64,000 nt of DNA from Cristatella mucedo (Eukaryota > Bryozoa > Phylactolaemata > Cristatellidae): NCBI GenBank assembly GCA_009760855.2, contig WPIO01000016.1:1110001-1174000 (forward strand), in the 5' to 3' direction. The position numbers and the translations under genes are program-made. The notes beneath the pieces were generated by a model. That model saw only the letters and a list, made by a program, of their open reading frames with translations. It did no database searches and was not told the origin of the DNA. Positions 10,007-33,629 of this stretch are shown here, in pieces (position 1 is the first letter of the stretch; every line of letters begins with the position of its first letter).

Positions 10007-10047
<41 letters not shown>

Positions 10048-10156
10048 GAGAGAGCAAGTGAGAGAGAGAGAGAAAGAGAGAGTGGGAGAGAGAGGAAGAG
10101 AGAGGAAGAGAGAGAGGGAGGGAGAGAAGGGAAGAGAGAGAGAGGAAAAGAGAGAA

Positions 10157-10187
<31 letters not shown>

Positions 10188-10255
10188 GAGAGTGGGAGAG
10201 AGACGAAGAGAGGGAGAGAGAGAGAGGGAGAGAGAGGGAGAGAGAGGGAGAGAGA

Positions 10256-10296
<41 letters not shown>

Positions 10297-10801
10297 TGGG
10301 AGAGAGAGGAAGAGAGAAAGGGAGAGAGAGAGAGAGAAAGAGAGATGAAATTTAGAGAGAGAGAGACAAATAGAGACAGAGAAGAAGAGAGATGAGAGAG
10401 AGAGAGAAAGGGAGAGTGGGAGAGAAAAGAAGAGAGGGGGTGGGAGAGAGACGAAGAGAGAGAGGGGGGTGGGAGGGAGAGAGAGAGAGGAAGAGAGGGA
10501 GAGAGAGATTGGGAGAGAGAGGAAGGGAGAGAGAGAGGAAAAGAGAGTGGGAGAGAGAAGAAGAGAAGGAGTGGGAGAGAGACAAAAAGAGAGAGATTGG
10601 GAGAGAGAGGAAGAGAGAGAGAAAGTGGGAGAGAAAGGAAGAGAGAATGAGAGAGAGAGAGAGCGGAAGAGAAATGAAATTGAGAGAGAGAGAGACAAAT
10701 AGAGACACAGAAGAAGAGAGAGAGAGAGAAAGAGAGAGTGGCAGAGAGAAGAAGAGAGGGGTGGGAGAGAGAGGAAGAGAGAGAGAGAGAAAGAGAAAAG
10801 G
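10007..10801 (+). repeat. 0.8-kb GA-rich polypurine tract
   Basis: Almost pure (GA)n with G and AA interruptions across about 795 bp; pyrimidines are rare on the plus strand. Long open frames in several phases are artefacts of the repeat. Confidence 0.95.
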
Positions 10802-11509: not shown

Positions 11510-12352
11510 AGTTGATGCTGTCGTGCGACCATCACCATGTGCTCAAATTTAGGTGTCGTTTTAGACAGCTGCATAAGTTTTAAAAGCTTCATTCAGAAGA
11601 CTGTTTCTAAAGCTAGCTATCACGTTCGATCCCTATCTAAGATTAGGAGCTGTCTTCTACACTGGCTTACAAAAAATTTAACTAGCTCCTTAGTTTTGCC
11701 TCAGCTTGATTATTGCCATTCCTTTTTGGCTGGTATACAAAGAAAGCAACTAGGCTACTACAGCTGGCTTGAATATGGCTGCAAGGCTAGTTTCAAGTCT
11801 CAAAGGTTTGACAACGTGTCTCCTTTGCTAAAAGAGCTGGGATGGCTGACGGTTGAGCAGCGGATACAGAGCATAGTTATTACGCTGACCCACAAGGCCC
11901 GCCATGGCTTGGCTCCTCCATACCTAGCTGAACTGCTGCATCAGTTTCAGCCTCTTCGTACCCTCAGGTCCTTATGGACGATTAATTGGCTGTTCCATTC
12001 CTCTGCTTAAAGACCTTCGGTGACAAAAGCTTTAGCTCTGTAGGTCCAAGACTGTGAAACTCGCTTCCACTATTCTTACGCAACAACAACTACTCTCCTG
12101 CTGCCGACTATGGCTCATCTTTTTCAGCGGTCCTGAGCTGCTACTTCGATGCTACTCACTACCTCAACTGATCTCCTGACTCTGCTATGCTTCCCACTTT
12201 CTCTTGGTTGCGTGAGATGAAGTCTGTTGGCTACCGAATGCGTACCAAAAGCCGCTTAGGCTATGAGTACGCTATACAAAACTCTCCTGCGTAACACCCA
12301 CAGAGTTTTTGTGGCTTTGCGGAGTTACAGACGGATATACATTACATCCAGG
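11510..12352 (+). pseudogene. LINE-B 3' end (second CR1/L2-like family)
   Basis: Plus-strand frames encode NLGVVLDSCISFKSFIQKTV, LVLPQLDYCHSFLAGI, SPLLKELGWLTVEQRI and HGLAPPYLAELLHQF, the C-terminal RT blocks. The 3' UTR ends with TGTAACTCCG-type sequence read in reverse (GTTACAGACGGATATACATT). 5'-truncated and frameshifted. A different family from LINE-A by coding sequence and tail. Confidence 0.88.
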
Positions 12353-33426: not shown

Positions 33427-33434
33427 ATCTACAG
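33427..33434. repeat. Left target-site duplication of the hAT element
   Basis: ATCTACAG, identical to the copy at 33622-33629 immediately after the element. Confidence 0.9.
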
Positions 33435-33621
33435 CAGTAGTTTTAAACCTTCCTAATGCCGCAACCCTTAGATACAGTTCCTCATGTTGTGGCGACTCCC
33501 AACCACAAAATTATTGTGTGAGAAATGTGGAAATGCGTGTTTTCCGATGGTCTTAGGCGACCCCTGCGAAAGGGTCGTTCGACCCCCAAAGGGATCGCGA
33601 TCCGCAGGTTGAGAACCGCTG
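33435..33621 (+). mobile_element. SPIN-like non-autonomous hAT miniature element
   Basis: A 187-bp element begins CAGTAGTTTTAAACCTTCC and ends GGTTGAGAACCGCTG, imperfect terminal inverted repeats of the SPIN/Charlie hAT type. The internal blocks TAATGCCGCAACCC, TCCTCATGTTGTGGCGAC and TTTCCGATGGTCTTAGGCG match, from memory, the SPIN consensus known from several tetrapods and some invertebrates. It is flanked by identical 8-bp copies ATCTACAG (33427-33434 and 33622-33629), the duplication size typical of hAT transposition. It has no coding capacity, so it was mobilised in trans. Confidence 0.9.
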
Positions 33622-33629
33622 ATCTACAG
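33622..33629. repeat. Right target-site duplication of the hAT element
   Basis: ATCTACAG, identical to 33427-33434. Confidence 0.9.

Follow-up and report, generated by a model that had tools for sequence, protein, structure and literature searches.

Sequence context and anatomy of the element

The stretch of DNA analysed here, referred to as the window, comprises 64,000 nucleotides with a GC content of 43–53% per 4 kb and carries exons of host genes with matches to RIO1 kinase and to a proteasome 26S non-ATPase subunit (closest solved structure PSMD5). Two further features were noted within it: a degenerate GA-repeat tract of 789 bp at positions 10,008–10,796 (period 2, 71% matches) and, at 11,516–12,010, a 164-aa frame that resembles the final part of a LINE reverse transcriptase and gives no Pfam match at E 0.001.

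The element under study is 187 bp long and occupies positions 33,435–33,621. It is assigned to the minus strand, on which it has the same orientation as the provisional consensus used here for the SPIN (SPACE INVADERS) transposons. On either side lies the target-site duplication ATCTACAG, at 33,427–33,434 on the left and at 33,622–33,629 on the right (no strand being assigned to either copy), and the two copies are identical at 8/8 positions, for which the chance calculated from base composition is 1.6e-5 per site. The left terminal inverted repeat, CAGTAGTTTTAAACCT (33,435–33,450, plus strand), is degenerate in the window copy, and the right repeat (33,606–33,621) reads CAGCGGTTCTCAACCT on the minus strand. 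Compared by eye, the two ends match at 12/16 bases in the window copy and at 15/16 in the consensus of 40 copies described below. The 187-bp element with hAT-type inverted ends and identical 8-bp flanks that had been predicted from these letters is hereby confirmed, its ends being imperfect.

A target-site duplication of 8 bp combined with short terminal inverted repeats of about 15 bp is the arrangement of hAT transposons. In addition, the element is non-coding and exists in many near-identical copies of one length, with 40/40 scored copies covering most or all of it, as is typical of miniature inverted-repeat transposable elements (MITEs). No second copy was found in the window by blastn, which returned, besides the self-hit, only matches of 11–26 bases with E values of about 1 or more. 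Taken together with the family data below, the element is probably a single member of a non-autonomous family (MITE) that falls within the SPIN group (Buster clade) of the hAT transposons and resides in an invertebrate nuclear genome.

Target-site duplications across the family

All 40 scored copies were read with their flanks. At the predicted ends, the flanks match at 8/8 positions in 13 copies, at 7/8 in 15 and at 6 or fewer in 12; three of these last 12 (L007, L015 and L032) reach 7–8/8 if one end is shifted by up to 4 bases. Matches of 7–8/8 thus occur in 28/40 true pairs of flanks, compared to 22/1,560 mismatched pairs. Among the 28 copies with such a duplication, TA occupies positions 4–5 of the left flank in 27 and of the right flank in 24. 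The family flanks therefore fit the target consensus of the Buster clade, nnnTAnnn, as does the ATCTACAG of the window copy. In PMC3499496, nnnTAnnn is given as the target duplication of TcBuster, and SPIN is placed with the Buster group of hAT. The description of the element as a SPIN-like hAT miniature in the original prediction is supported; Buster-type duplications are seen across the copies read, and the copies are many.

Copy number, divergence and age in the host assembly

The assembly searched was the one from which the window derives (572,011,866 bases in 688 contigs). The family search yielded 2,208 candidates, and the best 40 of these were scored; all 40 places match, comprising the window copy and 39 others at 88–90% identity. 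Being the closest matches to a single copy, they give a biased picture of the family. The consensus derived from all 40, window copy included, has a length of 187 bp. Within this set, distances average 0.058 to the consensus and 0.107 between pairs of copies, which indicates that the copies radiate in a star-like manner from one source. CpG sites were changed about twice as often as other sites (107/958 vs. 323/6,510 in the 40 copies).

Short blocks were used for counting across the whole assembly. A CpG-free block of 25 bases near one end has 181 exact matches and 1,458 matches with up to 3 mismatches, while its reversed version, serving as a control, has none in either search. A block of 30 bases near the other end has 108 exact matches, and its reverse again none. 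The copy count and divergence, both proposed with the original prediction as a check in the host assembly, were extrapolated from these block counts, assuming binomial changes, to ~1,750 copies and a family divergence of ~8.7%. The host genome thus probably holds more than a thousand copies. At a divergence of 5–8.7%, the burst would have an age of 23–39 million years at 2.2e-9 changes per site per year, or of 6–11 million years at 8e-9, both rates being assumed for this host.

The intact flanks had been taken to indicate a young insertion, which is overstated. The window copy differs from the 40-copy consensus at 13/187 sites (K2P 0.074), as against 0.058 on average for the best 40 copies and the family estimate of ~8.7%. 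It is an ordinary member of its family that has gathered about 7% of changes, and is not fresh.

Search for an autonomous partner

With a provisional TcBuster protein sequence as a query, 890 candidate places were obtained in the assembly, of which 69 were scored as Buster-type transposase relics that are 28–34% identical to the query. At least one in-frame stop is present in 65 of these 69. No SPIN end block is located within 9 kb of a relic among the matches listed (100/181 for the 25-base and 100/108 for the 30-base block, i.e., 200/289), the nearest lying at 9,557 bp; exact end blocks catch only part of the SPIN copies, which makes this proximity evidence weak. Likewise, SPIN ends were absent from the 50 of 138 matches to the domain PF05699 whose sequence was inspected, comprising 30 loci of 3.2 kb and 20 weaker ones of about 6 kb. 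The proposed search for an autonomous SPIN transposase in the host was therefore answered in part: transposase relics exist in this genome, and none of them is tied to SPIN ends among the end places listed and the loci read.

The same domain search revealed another, very young hAT family without SPIN ends. It is represented by the first 30 loci obtained with PF05699 (L042–L071, e.g., C62:104187-104423), whose main aligned pieces are 98.8–99.8% identical to L043. Open frames of up to 642 aa are found in the PF05699 matches, and the family looks recently active. Three further hAT relics (L084, L087 and L076) show a weak match to the dimerisation domain and lack SPIN ends in the surrounding ~3 kb; we take them to be reminiscent of Charlie-type transposases.

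The host lineage and the purity of the assembly

The mitochondrial contig of the assembly (C688) has a length of 21,008 bp, of which all but ~6.9 kb was read. Its COX1 and CYTB genes were found by Pfam search and the remaining genes were named by eye. COX1 reads with TGA as tryptophan and AGA/AGG as serine, some of the AGA/AGG codons falling at presumably conserved serines, and both AAA codons stand for lysine at positions where lysine is expected. Under the usual mitochondrial codes, this excludes vertebrates, echinoderms and flatworms, and by its mitochondrial code the SPIN-bearing host is an invertebrate. One strand of C688 carries the blocks COX3-ATP6-COX1-ATP8-ND3 and ND1-ND6-CYTB-ND4L-ND4, the other strand ND2 and COX2. 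This gene block and the wording of COX1 lead us to lean towards a lophotrochozoan host. Mollusc haemocyanin (PF14830) had no match in the assembly, in a search run without a positive control. A lamprey host was considered and dropped, as a lamprey globin used as a query had no match either and the mitochondrial contig shows an invertebrate code. PMC7070016 contains none of the words lamprey, hAT, SPIN, Petromyzon or jawless.

Repeated mitochondrial sequences were encountered at two places: a direct repeat with a spacing of 2,115 bp and at least 300 bases of 100% identity in C688:10450-14115 (L097), and pieces of cytochrome b about every 4.16 kb in C663:151836-177292, which, judged by match positions only, look like a mitochondrial insertion in a tandem array.

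Contamination of the assembly by vertebrate or other DNA, named with the original prediction as a finding that would speak against a further host, would be another origin for the window contig. The assembly is indeed not pure, as it includes at least one bacterial-looking contig, C3. In this contig of more than 1 Mb (around position 1093498, L095), a cytochrome b that is open in the standard code lies beside frames that, by eye, resemble gyrA and the DNA polymerase III epsilon exonuclease, and it possibly belongs to an alphaproteobacterial endosymbiont or contaminant. The SPIN end blocks, on the other hand, are spread over 83 contigs among the matches listed (200/289), and the CpG observed/expected ratio of the window, 0.80, is unlike the strong depletion of vertebrates. 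TGA is in frame in all 6/6 COX1 matches of the assembly, the coding having been read for C688 only. Finally, contig C166 combines three exact SPIN blocks with a stretch that is 96–97% like the mitochondrial contig. Given the invertebrate mitochondrial code and the joint occurrence of SPIN blocks and mitochondrial DNA on C166, a vertebrate source of the SPIN copies looks unlikely, and contamination of any kind is a highly improbable explanation of the window contig.

The mitochondrial stretch on C166 (around position 4375626, L093) deserves a description of its own. On this contig of more than 4 Mb, at least 3.7 kb are 96–97% identical to C688, with ~520 bases missing in mid-stretch, which reflects either a misjoin or mitochondrial DNA that was recently copied into the nucleus; the part read is mitochondrial throughout, and the junction to nuclear DNA lies outside it.

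The host could also be one of the known invertebrate carriers of SPIN or a close relative of these, namely, an assassin bug or a freshwater snail, in which case nothing new would have been found. SPIN is reported in the assassin bug Rhodnius in PMC11614815, and PMC5440852 describes, for the freshwater snail Biomphalaria, a hAT element with significant identity to SPIN in ~1,000 copies. Against such a host speak the search for the arthropod cuticle domain PF00379, run without a positive control, which gave no match in the assembly, and the mitochondrial contig of 21,008 bp, whose gene order with ND2 and COX2 on the opposite strand is unlike the compact order of pulmonate snails. Moreover, the GC content of about 45–47% in the stretches that were read exceeds that of the assassin bug and snail hosts. 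An identity with these known hosts is therefore considered unlikely, and the case is best described, as far as the mostly non-subscription papers searched show, as a new host for a known kind of element.

Resemblance to SPIN

SPIN is a classic example of a transposon that passed between distantly related animals. The SPIN reference used for comparison is provisional, not being a database record, and was written down after the consensus of the family had been seen, so that the comparison does not constitute an independent test. With this reference, two end blocks of the element align on the minus strand. In the block of 85 bases (33,537–33,621), the window copy matches the provisional SPIN at 81/85 positions and the 40-copy consensus at 85/85; in the block of 75 bases (33,435–33,509), the corresponding values are 66/75 and 74/75. 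Across the entire element, the consensus is identical to the provisional sequence at 179/185 aligned positions with 40 gap columns, and the window copy at 166/187 with 36 gap columns. The 40 gap columns of the consensus are due to its short middle, which differs from that of the provisional SPIN. The local alignment score of the consensus against this reference is 279, whereas the best of 200 shuffles scores 26.

The match to SPIN that was stated in the original prediction is thus reproduced by the family consensus, again against a provisional reference; the two references point the same way, yet they may share a source. An independent SPIN copy was sought in several collections. Pattern scans of viral contigs returned 0 copies and those of genome contigs just one stray match, of 20 bases and on an archaeal contig. 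BLAST searches of phages and plasmids gave a single 29-base match (E 0.6) and nothing else, and six SPIN fragments looked for in the text of papers were not found. We regard the match to the provisional sequence as a strong lead for SPIN identity. The view of this genome as another SPIN host accordingly stands as far as the many copies and the invertebrate host are concerned, and its SPIN identity depends on the provisional reference.

A different reading would be that the hAT miniature family is native to this invertebrate clade, was passed on by vertical descent and is similar to SPIN only through conserved Buster-type ends, without any transfer. Buster elements are at home in the host genome, as the 69 scored relics among 890 candidates illustrate, and the SPIN reference is a provisional one. 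Conversely, the resemblance to this reference extends far beyond the terminal repeats into 85/85 and 74/75 non-coding positions, and the star-like divergence of 5–9% speaks for a recent burst and against a native, vertically inherited family. A purely vertical origin thus appears rather improbable to us.

Proposed mechanism and putative horizontal transfer

The window element, which is without a gene, keeps both transposase-binding ends and is built like a deleted transposon that would have been mobilised in trans. In this model, a Buster-type transposase made elsewhere would have excised the element and inserted it at an nnnTAnnn site, where the 8 bp ATCTACAG were duplicated. SPIN would have entered the host lineage by horizontal transfer, and one deleted form would then have been amplified to roughly 1,750 copies. 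A transfer is suggested because non-coding ends so close to those of tetrapod SPIN should not outlast the split between invertebrates and vertebrates under vertical descent. The ends, the duplications, the many dispersed copies, their star-like divergence and the invertebrate host are matters of direct observation; horizontal entry followed by a burst would be the simplest account of the near-identical non-coding ends, provided that the provisional reference holds.

SPIN is also reported in the painted turtle (PMC4054807) and in mammals, where the transfers are dated to 15–46 million years ago (PMC5857283). We tentatively propose, as a conjecture we hold with less than even confidence, that SPIN invaded a major animal lineage for which no SPIN report was found. 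This lineage may belong to the lophotrochozoans, outside the snails already known as hosts, and the invasion may have coincided with that of the mammals. With its many Buster-type relics, such a lineage could have served as a reservoir of the SPIN wave besides receiving it. A further invertebrate host whose many copies can be dated would widen the map of this wave and help to ask which carriers were involved, and when.

Comparison with known elements

The family of the window shares with SPIN, in its provisional form, two end blocks (85 and 75 bases) and the 8-bp nnnTAnnn duplications, and, like SPIN, it occurs as a short deleted form in many copies. It differs from the provisional form in its short middle, and its host lies, so far as the mitochondrial DNA tells, outside the invertebrate hosts of SPIN found in print. 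With TcBuster, it has the 8-bp target duplications of the nnnTAnnn type in common (PMC3499496), whereas TcBuster codes for its own transposase and the window element does not; the host assembly contains relics that are 28–34% identical to the provisional TcBuster protein. The SPIN-like hAT of Biomphalaria glabrata, compared here by its description in PMC5440852, also inhabits an invertebrate and is present there in ~1,000 copies, compared to the ~1,750 estimated for the family described here.
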